Of a stretch of DNA of 64,000 bases, positions 43,311 to 49,347 are shown in pieces (position 1 is the stretch's first letter; every line of letters starts with the position of its first letter). The stretch is from the NCBI RefSeq assembly GCF_007751035.1, contig NZ_CP036433.1:5499001-5563000 (forward strand), in the 5' to 3' direction. Position numbers and translations under genes: made by a program. This DNA comes from Lignipirellula cremea (lineage in GTDB: Bacteria; Planctomycetota; Planctomycetia; Pirellulales; Pirellulaceae). The notes beneath the pieces are model-generated. The model was not told the DNA's origin. It saw only the letters and a program-made list of their open reading frames with translations, and did no database searches.

Positions 43311-43345
43311 ACAGGCCGCAACACGCGAATCGTGCTGCGGCCTGT
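43311..43345. terminator. Long hairpin between argC and porin-like copy 1
   Basis: ACAGGCCGCA (43311-43320) pairs with TGCGGCCTGT (43336-43345), and the loop itself can form CACG / CGTG. It lies 59 bp beyond the stop of porin-like copy 1. It ends minus-strand transcription of copy 1 upstream of the argC operon. Confidence 0.65.
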
Positions 43346-43403: not shown

Positions 43404-44798
43404 TTAGCGGAAGTAACGATTGAACTGAACCATGAGTTCGGTGTCAAAGTTACGATCTTCCTGCCGTAGCGGCATCACGGCGCCAACCCGCAGGTTGCTG
43501 CAGGCGCCCAGTTGGAAGTGCAACGCAGCCGTCAGGTTCAGCACGTCGTACCGGTTGTCGATATTGCCGTAGCCAAAAGTATCGGCATCGTCGAGGACAA
43601 TATCGCTGTCCTGGATCGCGGTGTTGTAGTGCAGTTCCAACAGCGCGGCCACGCCCGTGACGCGAGCACACGGGTTGCGGTAAAGCCAAGAACCCACCTG
43701 CACGTCGAGCATCAGCTGGTTCTGGTCCTGGAGGCGGCCTTCGCCCACGGCGTCAGTAAATTCGACGTCGTTTCCATTCAGATCAAAGTCAATCTGGGCA
43801 AAGGCGGTGACAAAAATATTGTCGGTCACCTGTTCCGTGTAGCCGATGAACGGCTGCAGGTGCCAGGCTTCATTCTTGATGCGGATGGCCTGGGTGGCCT
43901 GGGCAACCAGCGTTTCATCGGGAGCGTTGGGGATCACCAGCCCCAGGCCGACCGACAAAGCGGAATTCGACGTGCGGTGCAAATACTGCTTGTAAGCGAG
44001 CGTAATATTACCCAGCTGCTGATCGTTGCCCGCAACCTGACCGGCCACCTGGTTATTGTCGATCGCACTGATCAGCGGCAAACGCACTTCAATCGAACGA
44101 TTCCCGTCGAAGAACGGACGCTCAATACCCACCGTGTAACGGTCCGCATTGTAATCGTTGCCCAGCGTGTCGATGAACGCATTGTGGAAGTGGTTGTAGT
44201 TAACGTAGGCGCGATGACGGACCAGAGGGGAATTGTTATCCGCGATTTTGACGCGGCGATAGAAACTTCCCACGCCGCCTGCGCCCGATCCGCCGTAGCT
44301 GGAAATGAGGCGGTTATTCGCTTGCGCCATATCGCCAACCATGTTCGGCGTAAGGCTTTGCGACTCGCCTGCCACGCCCGACTGGCGGACGAAGTTGTCG
44401 ACCGAGGCGCTTGCGTCAAAGTTGCCTGTATCCGCCACCGGAGCCGGCATGTTGCTCAGGTCCGAAGGGGAAACCGAGGGATCGCGGGGGGGAGCCGGCG
44501 CGCCGGAATCACTCGGATCCGAGATCGGTGGCCGGGGCGCCGAGGGATCCGCCGGTGTCGGGCGTCCCGGGTTCATGTACGTGCCGCCGGGCGTAGGGGC
44601 GACCGGGCCCATCACGGCGGGACCATAAGAATCGCAGCCAACGCAGTTACCCGGTTGGTGCTGTGCCTGGGCCGGAGCCGCCACCGCCAGAGCGAGTATC
44701 ATCGCGCCAAAGCTGAATGCGGCCGTCCGACGCCGGACGCCGGAAACAAGCAGATTCATCCTGCCTGCAATTGCATACCGAAGAAACGCCAACTTCAT
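43404..44798 (-). CDS. Porin-like outer-membrane protein, tandem copy 1
   Basis: The 464-residue protein has a signal peptide (a long n-region, then FGAMILALAVAAPAQAQ), a Pro/Ser-rich linker of ~70 residues with repeated PSD/SDSGAP motifs, and a beta-rich body (~160-464): SVDNFVRQSGVAGESQSLTPN, YNHFHNAFIDTLG, RYTVGIERPFFDGNRSIEVRLPL, HFQLGACSNLRVGAVMPLRQEDRNF, ending in ...QFNRYFR. The terminal aromatic residue and strand pattern point to an outer-membrane barrel; no substrate or named family. GGAGG before the ATG supports the start. Closely related to the next two minus-strand genes. Confidence 0.85.
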   Translation of the reverse strand: MKLAFLRYAIAGRMNLLVSGVRRRTAAFSFGAMILALAVAAPAQAQHQPGNCVGCDSYGPAVMGPVAPTPGGTYMNPGRPTPADPSAPRPPISDPSDSGAPAPPRDPSVSPSDLSNMPAPVADTGNFDASASVDNFVRQSGVAGESQSLTPNMVGDMAQANNRLISSYGGSGAGGVGSFYRRVKIADNNSPLVRHRAYVNYNHFHNAFIDTLGNDYNADRYTVGIERPFFDGNRSIEVRLPLISAIDNNQVAGQVAGNDQQLGNITLAYKQYLHRTSNSALSVGLGLVIPNAPDETLVAQATQAIRIKNEAWHLQPFIGYTEQVTDNIFVTAFAQIDFDLNGNDVEFTDAVGEGRLQDQNQLMLDVQVGSWLYRNPCARVTGVAALLELHYNTAIQDSDIVLDDADTFGYGNIDNRYDVLNLTAALHFQLGACSNLRVGAVMPLRQEDRNFDTELMVQFNRYFR

Positions 44799-44825
44799 AG
44801 GAAAAACCTCCGTGTGTTTTACACC

Positions 44826-44837
44826 GGGCTCCTGCCC
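44826..44837 (-). promoter_or_regulatory. Leader hairpin of porin-like copy 1
   Basis: On the minus strand GGGC-AGGA-GCCC forms a 4-bp stem just before ACACGGAGG, the ribosome site of copy 1. An equivalent hairpin precedes each of the other two copies, with different loop bases. Confidence 0.5.
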
Positions 44838-45287
44838 AGTACTTTATGGGATGATGGGAGGGCTGCATGCATCCACCGATGTATTGCCGTCCGCCTGACA
44901 TCTAAAATCGGAAGCATTCCGACTCTTAGATTTGACTAAGAAACCCCACGGATGGGAATTGTTAAGACAGTTGCGGGTCGTACCAGTTGCGTCGACTTTT
45001 CCGGCAGCGAAAAATTTTCTCAAGAGAAAATACGCCCCCCACTTCTTTTGTGAGATCACCATGCTGCTAGTAGGGTATTCGGTCTGCTGGATGCAGCCCT
45101 GAAGTTCAGACGGATCAGGGCGCACCAACCTGCAAGCACGGAGGAGATGCAAGAAAGTTGCGGCCAGGAGAAAGCCGGCGCGGCCAACGAGCGTTCCCTC
45201 GAAGAACTTGAGCGATCTCCACGTCGGAGATTCTGCCGGCGTGCGCAAGATGCCTGGAACGGCGCCCGGGAACCGACGCCAGGCGGC

Positions 45288-45336
45288 GCGACGTTTGCGT
45301 CGCTGCTGAGTCCCCGGTTTCTGCCCGCCGGGGACT
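45288..45336. terminator. Two adjacent hairpins downstream of porin-like copy 2
   Basis: Hairpin A is GCGACG-TTTG-CGTCGC (45288-45303). Hairpin B is AGTCCCCGG / CCGGGGACT with a ten-base loop (45309-45336). Both lie 58-106 bp past the stop of copy 2. The same pair occurs after copy 3 at 47292-47340, with stem B changed from CCGG to CGAT pairing compensatorily. No clear T-run follows, so they could be terminators, mRNA-stabilising structures or a small RNA. Confidence 0.6.
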
Positions 45337-45393
45337 GCCGCCACAATTGACTCTTTCCGGTTCGCCGCTGCCCTGGCCACCGGGTCGAGGAGC

Positions 45394-46803
45394 CTAACGG
45401 AAGTAATGGTTGAACTGAACCATAAGTTCGGTATCAAAATTACGATCTTCCTGCCGCAACGGCACCGCGACGCCAGTCCGCAAGGTAGTCGACGACCCCA
45501 GCTGGAAGTGCAACGCGGCCGTCAGATTCAGCACGTCGAACCGGTTGTACGGAGTGCCGTAGATGGCGCCGCCGCCGCCAGCATCGATGTCATCGGAATC
45601 CTGGAGGGCTGTGTTGTAGTGGAGTTCCAGCAGGGCCGCCACGCCCGTGACGCGAGCGCACGGGTTCCGATACAGCCAGCTGCCGACCTGCACGTCAAGC
45701 ATCAGCAGGTTCTGGTCCTGGCTGCGCTCGCCCACAAGATTCGCGACCCCGTTGTTTTCGATGCCGTTTCCATTCAGATCGAAGTCAACCTGAGCGAAAC
45801 CGGTGACGAAAATCCGGTCGGTGACATTTTCCGTATAGCCAATAAACGGCTGCAGGTGCCAGGCCTCGTTCTTCACTCGGAAGTTGGCAACGACTTCGGT
45901 GTAGGTTTCACCGGGAGCGGTGGGAATCCCCAGTCCCAGGCCGGCGGTCAGGGCGGAATTCGACGTGCGATACAGATACTGCTTGTACGCCAGCGTAATA
46001 TTGCCGAGTTGCTGATCGTTGCCCGACGTTGAATTAATCGAAGCCACCTCCACGTTGTTATCGATGGAGCTGACCAGCGGCACTCGCACCTCGATCGAAC
46101 GATTCCCATCCCAGAACGGACGTTCAATGCCGACCGTATAGCGATCGGTGTTGTACTGGCCGCCGCCAACATCACTAAAGGTGTTGTGGAAATGGTTGTA
46201 GGTCAGATAGGCTCGATGGCGAACCAGCGGCGAATTATTGTCCGCGATCTTGAACCGACGATAAAAACTGCCGATACCGCCTGCCTCAATGCCGGATGAG
46301 GAGAGAAACAGCCGGCTGCCGGCTACCGCCATATCGCCAACCATGTTCGGCGTCAGGCTTTGCGACTCGGAAGCCACGCCTGACTGCCGGACGAAATTGT
46401 CGACCGAGGCGCTGGCGTTGAAGTCGCCCGTGTCCGCCATGGGAGCCGGCATGTCGCTCAGATCCGAAGGGGACACGCTCAAATCACCAGGAGGAACCGG
46501 GGCGCCCGAATCGCTCGGATCCGAGATCTGCGGCCGGGGAGTCGAAGGACCGGCCGGCGTGGGACGCCCTGGGTTCATGTACGTACCGCCGGGTGTAGAG
46601 CCGACCGCGCCCATTACGGCGGGGCCGTAAGAGTCGCATCCGACGCAGTTGCCTGGCTGGTGCTGAGCCTGGGCCGGAGCCGTTACGGCCAGGGCGAGTA
46701 ACATCGCACCAAAGCTGAGGGCGGCCGTCCGACGACGCCGGACCCCAGAGACAAGCAGATTCATCCGGCCTGCAATCGCATATCGAAGTAACGCCAGCTT
46801 CAT
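45394..46803 (-). CDS. Porin-like outer-membrane protein, tandem copy 2
   Basis: The 469-residue protein is a close paralogue of copy 1: the same MKLALLRYAIAGRMNLLVSG start, the same HQPGNCVGCDSYGPAVMG block, and the same barrel landmarks (RYTVGIERPFWDGNRSIEVR, ending QFNHYFR). It differs in loop regions, e.g. SSIDNNVEVASINSTSGND, and has an insertion ENNGVANLVGERS. The ATG at 46803 has GGAGG eight bases upstream; the frame extends 41 codons upstream with no start signal. Two hairpins follow the stop. Confidence 0.87.
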   Translation of the reverse strand: MKLALLRYAIAGRMNLLVSGVRRRRTAALSFGAMLLALAVTAPAQAQHQPGNCVGCDSYGPAVMGAVGSTPGGTYMNPGRPTPAGPSTPRPQISDPSDSGAPVPPGDLSVSPSDLSDMPAPMADTGDFNASASVDNFVRQSGVASESQSLTPNMVGDMAVAGSRLFLSSSGIEAGGIGSFYRRFKIADNNSPLVRHRAYLTYNHFHNTFSDVGGGQYNTDRYTVGIERPFWDGNRSIEVRVPLVSSIDNNVEVASINSTSGNDQQLGNITLAYKQYLYRTSNSALTAGLGLGIPTAPGETYTEVVANFRVKNEAWHLQPFIGYTENVTDRIFVTGFAQVDFDLNGNGIENNGVANLVGERSQDQNLLMLDVQVGSWLYRNPCARVTGVAALLELHYNTALQDSDDIDAGGGGAIYGTPYNRFDVLNLTAALHFQLGSSTTLRTGVAVPLRQEDRNFDTELMVQFNHYFR

Positions 46804-46830
46804 TGATACAACCTCCGTGTGTTTTCCATC

Positions 46831-46842
46831 GGGCTCATGCCC
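46831..46842 (-). promoter_or_regulatory. Leader hairpin of porin-like copy 2
   Basis: On the minus strand GGGC-ATGA-GCCC forms a 4-bp stem just before the GGAGG ribosome site. The loop differs from copy 1, but the stem is kept. Confidence 0.5.
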
Positions 46843-47291
46843 AGATGCTTGTGGGATGATGGGAAGGCTGCATCCGTCTAACGATGTCGTGCCATCCGCC
46901 TTACCTATACAATCGGAAAAACCCATTCAACCAGATTCAATAAAGAACGCCCTCAGGGGGGGAATCCTTAAGACGCTTGCGGGTCGTAACAATTGCGTCG
47001 ACTTTTCCGGCAGCGCAAAGTTTTCTTGGGGTAAATTACGTCCCCTCCAGTTCCGTGAGATCATGGAACTAACAGCAGGGCAGGCTGTCGTCTGGATGCA
47101 GGCCGGCAAGTTCAGACCGAACCGGGCGAACAAAATCGCAAGTCAAGACAAAATTCAAGACAGCAGGGGCTATTAGATAGCCATCGCAGCCAATGAGCGT
47201 TCCTTTTCAGAACGTAAGCGATCTCCCTGTGGGAGATTCTGCTGGCGTGCGCAAAATGCCTGGAACAGCCCGTGGGCCGACGCCAGGCGGC

Positions 47292-47340
47292 GCGACGTTT
47301 GCGTCGCTGCTGAGTCCCCGATCTCTGCCAATCGGGGACT
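47292..47340. terminator. Two adjacent hairpins downstream of porin-like copy 3
   Basis: Hairpin A, GCGACG-TTTG-CGTCGC, is at 47292-47307. Hairpin B, AGTCCCCGAT / ATCGGGGACT, is at 47313-47340 with an eight-base loop. Both correspond in order and spacing to the pair after copy 2; stem B has compensatory changes. Confidence 0.6.
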
Positions 47341-47397
47341 GCCGCCACAAGACACTCATTCCGGCTTGCCGCTGCCCTGGCGGCCGGATCGAGGAGA

Positions 47398-48870
47398 CTA
47401 ACGGAAGTAGTGGTTAAACTGCGCCAATACTTCTGTATCAAAGTTGCGGTCGTCCTGCCGCAAAGGCGTCACTACGCCAACCCGCAGCGTGGACTTCTGC
47501 CCCAGCTGGAAATGCATCGCAGCCGTCAGGTTCAGCACGTCAAACCGGTTGGTCGCGTTGCCGTAACCATACGTGGTGTAGCCCACGTAGTCTGCATTCT
47601 GCACGGCCGTGTTGTAGTGCAACTCCACCAGCATCGCCAGGCCGGTGACATGTGCGCTTGGATTGCGATAGATCCATGAGCCGACCTGAAAATCCAGCAT
47701 GAACAGATTCTGGTCCTGAATCACGCCCGGCGAAGGATTGCCGGTGAAGTCCACCCGGTTGCCATTCAGGTCGAAGTCGAGCTGTGCAAAACAGGTGACG
47801 AAGAGCCGGTCGGTAACCTGCTCGGAATATCCGATAAACGGCTGCAGGTGCCACGCGTCATTGCTAATGCGGAACTGGTCGCCGCCGCCCAGGTCCATCG
47901 TCTCGGAGGGACCGTTGGGGATCACCATCGCCAGTCCGATCGACAGGGCCGTCTGGGGAGAGCTGTACACGTACTGCTTGTAAGCCAACGCAATGTTACC
48001 CAGCTGCTGATCGTTGCCGGCAGGCTCATTCACCGAAAGATTATTGTCAATCGAACTGATCAGCGGCAAACGCACTTCGATGGAGCGGTTGCCGTCGTAA
48101 AACGGACGCTCGATTCCCGCCGTGTAACGATCGGCGTTGAAGTCGTTTCCCAGGGCATCGGTGAACGCATTATGGAAATGGTTGTAGTTCAAAAAAGCGC
48201 GGTGCCGGACAAAGGGCGAATTGTTATCCGAGATTTTGATGCGACGGGAGTAGCCGGCCACGCCGCCGGCGCCTTCGATGGGGGTCGGCCCGCTTACGAT
48301 GTCGCAATACTGGGCGCTGGAAATGGCCATGTCGCCAACCATATTTGGCGTGAGACTCTGCGATTCCGACGACACGCCCGACTGCCGCACAAAGTTGTCG
48401 ACCGACGCGCTGACATCCACATCGCCCGTATCCGCCGTAGGCGCCGGAATATTGCTCAGGTCCTGGGGCGACGCAGACGGATTACTGGGATCCATCGGCG
48501 AACCAGGGTCGACCGTGGGGGCCGAAGGAGCCCCCTGGCCCGGCGGCGTCGGCCTGGTCGGGTTCATGTAGGAACCGCCCGGCATCGACGAAACGGGCCC
48601 CATCAACGCCGGCCCGTACGAATCACATTGGGGCTGGTATTGCTGCGAATACTGGTATTGCTGGTATTGCTGGTATTGCTGGTATTGTTGCGAATACTGG
48701 TATTGCTGCGAATATTGCGGATGATAATGCTGTGCGTGCGCCGGAGTGGAGACCGTCAGGGCAAGAATCATGGCGCCAAAACTGAGAACAGCCGTCCGGC
48801 GCCGCCCAACGCCTGCAAAAGAGCCCAGCACTCTGCTAGCAATCGCAAAGCGTAGTAAGGCCAACTTCAT
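47398..48870 (-). CDS. Porin-like outer-membrane protein, tandem copy 3, with Gln/Tyr-rich repeat
   Basis: The 490-residue paralogue keeps the same barrel (RYTAGIERPFYDGNRSIEVRLPL, ending QFNHYFR) and signal peptide region. In place of the short HQPGNCVGC segment after the signal peptide it has a Gln/Tyr-rich repeat (YQYSQQYQQYQQ-type, nt 48636-48720). This could be a surface-exposed, adhesive or flexible segment; it is inference. The ATG at 48870 has GGAGG seven bases upstream; the upstream frame extension to 49038 looks non-coding. It diverges from the O-methyltransferase at 49348. Confidence 0.87.
   Translation of the reverse strand: MKLALLRFAIASRVLGSFAGVGRRRTAVLSFGAMILALTVSTPAHAQHYHPQYSQQYQYSQQYQQYQQYQQYQYSQQYQPQCDSYGPALMGPVSSMPGGSYMNPTRPTPPGQGAPSAPTVDPGSPMDPSNPSASPQDLSNIPAPTADTGDVDVSASVDNFVRQSGVSSESQSLTPNMVGDMAISSAQYCDIVSGPTPIEGAGGVAGYSRRIKISDNNSPFVRHRAFLNYNHFHNAFTDALGNDFNADRYTAGIERPFYDGNRSIEVRLPLISSIDNNLSVNEPAGNDQQLGNIALAYKQYVYSSPQTALSIGLAMVIPNGPSETMDLGGGDQFRISNDAWHLQPFIGYSEQVTDRLFVTCFAQLDFDLNGNRVDFTGNPSPGVIQDQNLFMLDFQVGSWIYRNPSAHVTGLAMLVELHYNTAVQNADYVGYTTYGYGNATNRFDVLNLTAAMHFQLGQKSTLRVGVVTPLRQDDRNFDTEVLAQFNHYFR
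48636..48720 (-). repeat. CAATACCAG-type tandem repeat in porin-like copy 3
   Basis: Read on the minus strand, nine-base GCAATACCA-like units, encoding Gln-Gln-Tyr, are arrayed with imperfect interruptions (Tyr-Ser-Gln). The plus strand shows TGGTATTGC repeated. The unit length keeps frame, so the array could vary in copy number. Copies 1 and 2 have no such array. Confidence 0.8.
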
Positions 48871-49347
48871 GAGGGTACCTCCGTGTACATAACGGGGCTG
48901 GAGCCCCCGATTCATGGTGACTTGGTTGAGCGGACGCTGACGCCAGGCGATCACCGATCGACCGCCTGCCCTACTATTTCGGACATCCCCCCAAATTGGC
49001 ACTACTGCAACGATCGGGACAGTCGTTAAATTCCGCACTCCCCTGCGCGTCGTAGCGATTGCGGAGGAAAGGAAAGACAGGGACTTCGGGGTGTTTAATG
49101 GACGAGAATCGCCCGTCTTGCGGCCATTGTCATCCCGCCGGCCGGACGCAAACGGAGCGGACAGCGTCTCCCCTGGTCCCCCGTTTTGCTACACTTTGGG
49201 ACGATCGGAACACTACCTGAAGATTTTCCGGAGGGAGTTCGCTGCTCCCAGCCGAGGCGGCAGGAAACCGGGGATAGAGGGAACGCGAGTTCGCCTGGAC
49301 CGCCGCTTCTTGCCCCCTGTTTACTCTCACGAATAGAAGGTGGAGTG
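48871..49347. other. Divergent intergenic region with copy 3 leader
   Basis: This 477-bp gap separates copy 3 (minus) and the O-methyltransferase (plus). It begins with the copy 3 ribosome site and a leader hairpin at 48894-48907, a stem GGGGC / GCCCC like those of copies 1 and 2. A GACAGTCGTTAAATTCC-type block and a GTCGTAGCGATTGCGG block echo the other leaders, weakly. I see no clear gene. It should contain both promoters. Confidence 0.55.

Follow-up and report, generated by a model that had tools for sequence, protein, structure and literature searches.

A tandem array of diverged barrel genes

The genome of Lignipirellula cremea, a single contig of 9,565,229 bases, carries a tandem array of three related genes, here called g1, g2 and g3. 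They lie in a stretch of 64,000 nucleotides (contig NZ_CP036433.1, positions 5,499,001 to 5,563,000) that we refer to as the window and whose coordinates are used below. The array is an old set of paralogues under purifying selection, and its products are predicted to form barrels of the outer-membrane type. We consider it probable that an ancestral planctomycete outer-membrane barrel gene was duplicated in tandem twice, that the copies were kept by divergence and that they encode exported, gated barrels. The triplication itself is an ordinary, old gene-family expansion, and the main value of the locus lies in the uncharacterised barrel family to which it belongs and in the recurring signalling neighbourhood of that family.

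All three genes are encoded on the minus strand. In brief, g1 (47398-48870, 490 aa) is the first in transcription order and the most diverged copy, g2 (45394-46803, 469 aa) is the middle copy and g3 (43404-44798, 464 aa) is the last, all three being defined by open reading frame (ORF) and alignment. The ORFs bear out the positions given in the first-pass annotation, which had placed the starts about 2 kb apart; successive starts are separated by 2067 and 2005 bases. The ATG of g1 at 48870 sits within a longer ORF reaching 49038, and that of g2 at 46803 within one reaching 46926. The latter ATG is preceded by the shared ribosome-binding region, ACACGGAGGT, which is found at -16/-17 in all three leaders.

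The proteins encoded by g2 and g3 are identical at 362/462 positions (78%), those of g1 and g3 at 309/455 (68%) and those of g1 and g2 at 294/454 (65%). Synonymous distances are 0.83 for g2 and g3, 1.43 for g1 and g3 and 1.48 for g1 and g2, the last two being near saturation, and the pairwise ratio of nonsynonymous to synonymous substitutions is 0.17-0.18. Fourfold sites differ at 81/199 (g2 and g3), 83/164 (g1 and g3) and 84/154 (g1 and g2) positions.

The same orientation and the regular 2-kb spacing of the copies would also suit a recent amplification for dosage, or a duplication made by the assembly. The copies are far from near-identical, however, differing by 22-35% in protein and by 41-55% at fourfold sites. 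This divergence leaves such origins with next to no probability, and we therefore regard both assembly duplication and recent dosage amplification as excluded. The first-pass annotation had offered dosage or diversification as the meaning of the array; the same figures speak against the former, and the latter, under purifying selection, fits better.

Intergenic sequences and signals

The two gaps inside the array had been noted to align with each other, and they do. The gap between g1 and g2 (46804-47397, 594 nt) and that between g2 and g3 (44799-45393, 595 nt), both read on the minus strand, are homologous along their whole length, with 451/592 positions identical (76.2%) compared with 37.8-44.9% in 20 mononucleotide shuffles. 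Comparison of the 200 nt adjoining the genes gives 84.8% identity (198 positions) for the tails of g1 and g2 and 74.4% (199 positions) for the leaders of g2 and g3. These two internal gaps support a tandem duplication in which intergenic sequence was copied together with the gene.

The claim that the repeated unit includes leader and tail holds for these internal sequences but not for the ends of the array. The 200-nt tail of g3 shows no likeness to the other tails above shuffles (0.491 and 0.503, with maxima of 0.529 and 0.512 in 30 shuffles), and the same holds for the 200-nt leader of g1 when its full length is compared with the other two leaders (0.477 and 0.457, with maxima of 0.570 and 0.526); that leader matches only in the ribosome-binding region and in a 20-nt box. 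The duplicated unit is thus real within the array, and its outer edges have decayed or never belonged to it.

The 20-nt box is located on the minus strand at -193 of g1 (49044-49063; CGCAATCGCTACGACGCGCA), -194 of g2 (46978-46997) and -193 of g3 (44972-44991). The g1 box matches that of g2 at 17/20 and that of g3 at 16/20 positions, and none of 1000 mononucleotide shuffles reached either value. A common box at a constant distance from the ATG suggests a conserved promoter or operator. Nowhere else in the genome is there an exact match to the pattern built from these three copies. A wider regulon was considered and rejected, with 54 genome sites at up to three mismatches against 93 for the control.

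Downstream of g1 (47286-47346) and g2 (45282-45342), on the minus strand, we found a 61-nt element whose minimum-energy structure has two hairpins closed by GGCGGC/GCCGCC. By eye, one stem pair in the g2 element is changed on both sides relative to the g1 element (A-U to G-C) and the next pair is lost. The folding z score is -2.46 for the g1 element, with 3/200 shuffles as good. Folding beyond composition is not established, because the g2 element reaches only -0.68 (48/200). The double hairpin lies in a stretch that is more conserved than the fourfold sites. Rfam gave no match at either element, and after g3 only two P17 matches, both below the gathering score. A terminator-like hairpin of 15 pairs followed by TTTTCG is found after g3 (43311-43345, minus strand). 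The number of terminator-like sites, eight against 6.6 from shuffles, is not above chance; the other seven have 5-7 pairs.

Other readings of the gaps were tried. A dispersed repeat was rejected, as a whole-genome search gave no further copy and otherwise only matches of 16-48 nt with an expect value (E) of 0.03 or worse, 40 of the 50 candidates being scored. A hidden gene finds no clear coding signal in the substitutions by codon position, which are 7/41, 3/40 and 5/40 in the first 121 columns; one frame is open for 182 codons in the gap between g2 and g3, and the same frame for at most 94 in the other. The motif CCGGAAAAGTCGAC, present in both gaps, occurs at 20 places in the genome when one mismatch is allowed, compared with 3 for its reversed control. 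Four exact sites lie outside the array, and of the three inspected, two are within ORFs and one is just before a likely gene start. We dropped it as a functional motif in favour of codon bias, which is probable and unproved, and the excess over the control remains.

Predicted structure of the protein

The first-pass annotation described a common signal peptide, a Pro-rich linker and a barrel. Each copy indeed has a hydrophobic, signal-like N-terminus, as judged by eye, and a Pro-rich stretch, and the barrel was modelled for g2. In g1 alone, a 9-nt repeat (48633-48726) encodes a Gln/Tyr-rich stretch (QYSQQYQYSQQYQQYQ...) directly after the signal-like segment.

Domain libraries give the family no curated name. 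None of the three copies matched an NCBIfam model, even with E allowed up to 1, and Pfam gave them only weak matches below the cut-off, OpcA for g2 and Trnau1ap for g1. Among 32 family members, four Pfam families were matched, each in one member only, with a best E of 0.0014. PF13557 (Phenol_MetA_deg) had no match among the three copies (E limit 1) or the 32 members (E limit 0.1), and none of the three places in the genome where PF13557 exceeds its cut-off coincides with a barrel-family gene. A profile-profile comparison (hhalign) of the family with PF13557 gave a probability of 1% over 14 columns; the PF13557 profile was made from 19 proteins, of which L168 and perhaps L169 are in a doubtful frame or start. 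A search of PDB sequences with the family profile gave four matches with E of 0.24-8.2, which we take as chance.

The structure of g2 was modelled from a 15-row alignment, as prediction from the single sequence gave a mean predicted local distance difference test (pLDDT) score of 34 and was unusable. The model has a C-terminal barrel with exactly 12 strands of at least 10 residues between residues 197 and 467. Of the 28 ten-residue blocks that begin at residue 191, 22 reach a pLDDT of at least 70. In a Foldseek search with this model the first 18 matches are all FapF entries (best E 1.4e-9), and the nineteenth is the COG4313 channel 4rl8. VIA-align superimposes model residues 146-468 on FapF 88-406 with Z 22.9 over 251 residues (root mean square deviation, rmsd, 3.5), and the model on 4rl8 with Z 20.9 over 234 residues (rmsd 2.9). 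The proteins are accordingly described here as predicted 12-strand barrels of the outer-membrane type, closest in fold to FapF and the COG4313 channel. The earlier term porin-like is reasonable as a putative label for such a predicted fold. A location at the cell surface is suggested by three features: the signal-like start of the protein, the modelled barrel and an aromatic C-terminus.

Before the barrel, the family conserves a P-x-M-x-G-D segment. In the 32-row alignment G155 is invariant and D156 is at least 90% conserved. The residue after GD is F or Y in 17/32 members, and FF follows in 13/32; the array copies have M-A.

Origin and role of the array

We propose that the ancestral barrel gene was duplicated in tandem twice, probably through unequal exchange of a unit of about 2 kb made up of the gene and an intergenic stretch. 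The copies would have been retained for divergence in what they bind or pass, as the loop and linker differences suggest, and not for dosage. Expression probably runs from a separate leader for each copy, carrying the common box near -193, and a strong transcription stop would follow only g3. Most likely the protein is exported and forms a 12-stranded barrel in the outer membrane. Its N-terminal PxMxGD segment would lie in or under the pore and narrow or gate it, as the N-termini of FapF and the COG4313 channel do. A narrowed or gated channel is the mechanism that we judge most likely.

Several observations weigh against parts of this proposal. Residues 1-148 of the g2 model have a pLDDT below 50 and the blocks at 151-190 only 52-66, so the idea of a plug draws on two things, the conservation of the segment and the aligned range. 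With Z of about 16-19, autotransporters and the KdgM/NanC porins come close behind as structural matches, and the fold therefore does not fix the function. The outer flanks of the array are unlike the internal gaps except for the -193 box and the ribosome-binding region. The tails of g1 and g2 differ by 15% and their fourfold sites by 55%, and something beyond duplication and drift, either selection on the tail or gene conversion, is therefore needed. Finally, the protein tree pairs g1 with g3 (97/85), whereas raw distances pair g2 with g3, so that the two point to different orders of duplication.

The last two points would also follow from partial homogenisation, in which the loops diverge but gene conversion maintains similarity in the gaps and in some tracts, making the array a recombining cassette for surface variation. 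Sites at which g1 and g3 share a state that g2 lacks are clustered at codon-alignment columns 776-959, with 33 of 60 informative sites and none of 2000 permutations as extreme; a count of 24/40 sites gives p 0.001. Together with the pairing in the tree, this clustering in the barrel part is a hint of exchange between copies. Long identical tracts are missing, however, and no 100-column window of gap plus g2 against gap plus g3 exceeds 90% identity. The cluster is weak when only third positions are considered (p 0.41, 0.11 and 0.019 at three widths). When changes are polarised by the paralogue 6285024 from the same genome, those specific to g2 and those shared by g1 and g3 are both raised in this part of the gene, which faster change of g2 would also explain. 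Moreover, sites at which g1 and g2 agree cluster at columns 1068-1232 with p 0.016 at one width, and the p values are uncorrected over eight pattern-width combinations. We think it unlikely that homogenisation shaped the array to this extent, and keep to duplication followed by divergence.

The barrel family

Planctomycete outer-membrane proteins are known largely by prediction; a genome survey, in the excerpt at hand, lists numbers of predicted barrels, several of them without an assigned function (PMC3422733). The locus points to an unnamed barrel family with clear signature motifs and a fold match. In a limited literature search of one open-access library, no paper was about this barrel family as judged by title or the start of the abstract.

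The first-pass annotation had asked how many paralogues occur elsewhere, and we found three further family genes in the genome (E < 1e-30): 6285024 (47%), 3514336 (35%) and 523747 (35%). In a tree of 32 rows, g1, g2 and g3 form a clade with 6285024 of the same genome (G000) with 100/100 support. The relatives compared all come from genera other than that of the host. Of 32 related proteins located, L017, with an internal stop, L026, a near copy of L023, and the short L028 were left out of the alignment and the tree.

Family members (E 1e-15) are present in at least 108 of 241 genomes searched from the host's family, its own included. The family counts are lower bounds, with up to seven candidates scored per genome and only listed matches counted. 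Tandem pairs of family genes on the same strand occur in genomes G031, G083, G241, G013 and G194, and no other triple was found among the matches listed. Genome G031 has eight barrel-family matches at E 1e-10, two of which are perhaps pieces of one gene, and these include its tandem pair (L116). In L096:2921-4990 and L097:1434-3512 the barrel is encoded in a single long open frame together with a domain at the N-terminus that lacks a Pfam match and, by eye, resembles helical repeats.

Genomic neighbours of the array and the family

According to Pfam, the gene flanking the array on one side encodes an argC-type semialdehyde dehydrogenase and that on the other an O-methyltransferase. The ORF beyond the argC-type gene resembles argJ by eye.

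Neighbours of the wider family were surveyed in 41 regions, 40 fetched and the window, mostly one region per genus, with 47 family ORFs. A kinase gene lies directly 5' of the family gene on the same strand in 11 regions from 10 genera (L182, L183, L185, L186, L188, L189, L196, L199, L200, L201 and L209), with -63 to 408 nt between the open frames. In seven regions a long gene with a caspase domain adjoins the family gene. In five of them (L177, L179, L192, L194 and L212) it is convergent and lies directly 3', and in the other two (L203 and L205) it lies directly upstream in the same orientation. Pfam confirmed the kinase domain in two of the 11, L199 and L182 (the latter on the same contig as L101), as well as in L102, L105 and L107 outside the 41 regions. 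For three of the caspase neighbours, those in L179, L192 and L177 (the last on the same contig as L100), Pfam confirmed both WD40 and caspase domains. Neighbours not confirmed by Pfam rest on a kinase profile from four sequences and a caspase profile from one. Four kinases in the same regions are non-adjacent or on the opposite strand (L190, L192, L194 and L212).

The only yardstick for these adjacencies is the host genome, with 70 kinase-domain and 6 caspase-domain matches. From these 70 matches across 9.57 Mb, we estimate that a kinase gene would lie directly upstream of a given gene by chance with a frequency of the order of 1%. The 40 regions were chosen after such neighbours had first been noticed, and L177, L179, L182, L183, L194, L205 and L212 were already known or likely positives; nine of the 11 kinase cases and two of the seven caspase cases had not been seen before that choice. 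The recurring association of the family with kinases and caspase homologues is unexpected.

One could imagine that the barrels are export pores or surface parts of a signalling or cell-death module linked to kinases and caspases, with the array as an expanded, detached branch. Besides the adjacencies, the paralogue G000:523747 of the same genome has such a kinase gene 84 nt upstream, and the FapF secretion pore is the nearest match to the predicted fold. However, the array itself has no direct kinase or caspase neighbour; it sits between the argC-type and O-methyltransferase genes, with the nearest kinase 18 kb away. Neither direct neighbour occurs in 23 of the 41 regions, seven regions were picked with the outcome known or likely, the counts are gauged by the host genome only, and adjacency is silent on what a barrel carries. 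Such a role for the barrels is in our view quite improbable. Put in its boldest form, the FapF-like, putatively gated barrel family may form the envelope arm of a module with either a kinase encoded directly upstream or a WD40-caspase protein encoded mostly convergently, the array being a branch that expanded and detached in this genome and has its own leader box; this we offer as speculation of low probability. Our preferred reading stays with an exported, gated barrel in an old tandem array.

Comparison with known systems

The published systems compared here are cited from excerpts of the papers. FapF has a plug helix at residues 89-101, followed by FF (PMC5557850). The family resembles it in a 12-stranded barrel of the FapF/autotransporter shape, by prediction only and for g2, and in a structural alignment that begins at model residue 146 and FapF residue 88, the start of the FapF plug, where the pLDDT of the model is 52-66. 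As FF follows the plug helix of FapF, so FF follows the conserved GD in 13/32 family members, but the array copies carry M-A there. Furthermore, identity in the structural matches is 11-13%, the family profile finds no FapF chain among PDB sequences at E up to 10, and the N-terminal region of g2 is Pro-rich and of low confidence, with no coiled coil visible in the model. The direct neighbours of the array, which are those examined for Fap genes, are not fap-like.

In the COG4313 channel Pput2725 the N-terminus is tucked into the barrel, and hydrophobic molecules are its proposed cargo (PMC4493636). The predicted barrel is of the same kind, and in 4rl8 the N-terminus narrows the lumen (PMC4493636), in the way that we suggest for the PxMxGD segment. 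The family differs from COG4313 and PF13557 in that it has no match to that profile.

As for the history of the array, the duplication of OmpF in Dickeya is an example of a duplicated proteobacterial porin (PMC10581057). Both are, as far as that excerpt goes, lineage-specific duplications of an outer-membrane barrel gene. OmpF belongs to another phylum and, judged by name only, to another barrel family, whereas the array described here consists of three tandem copies with shared intergenic sequence.

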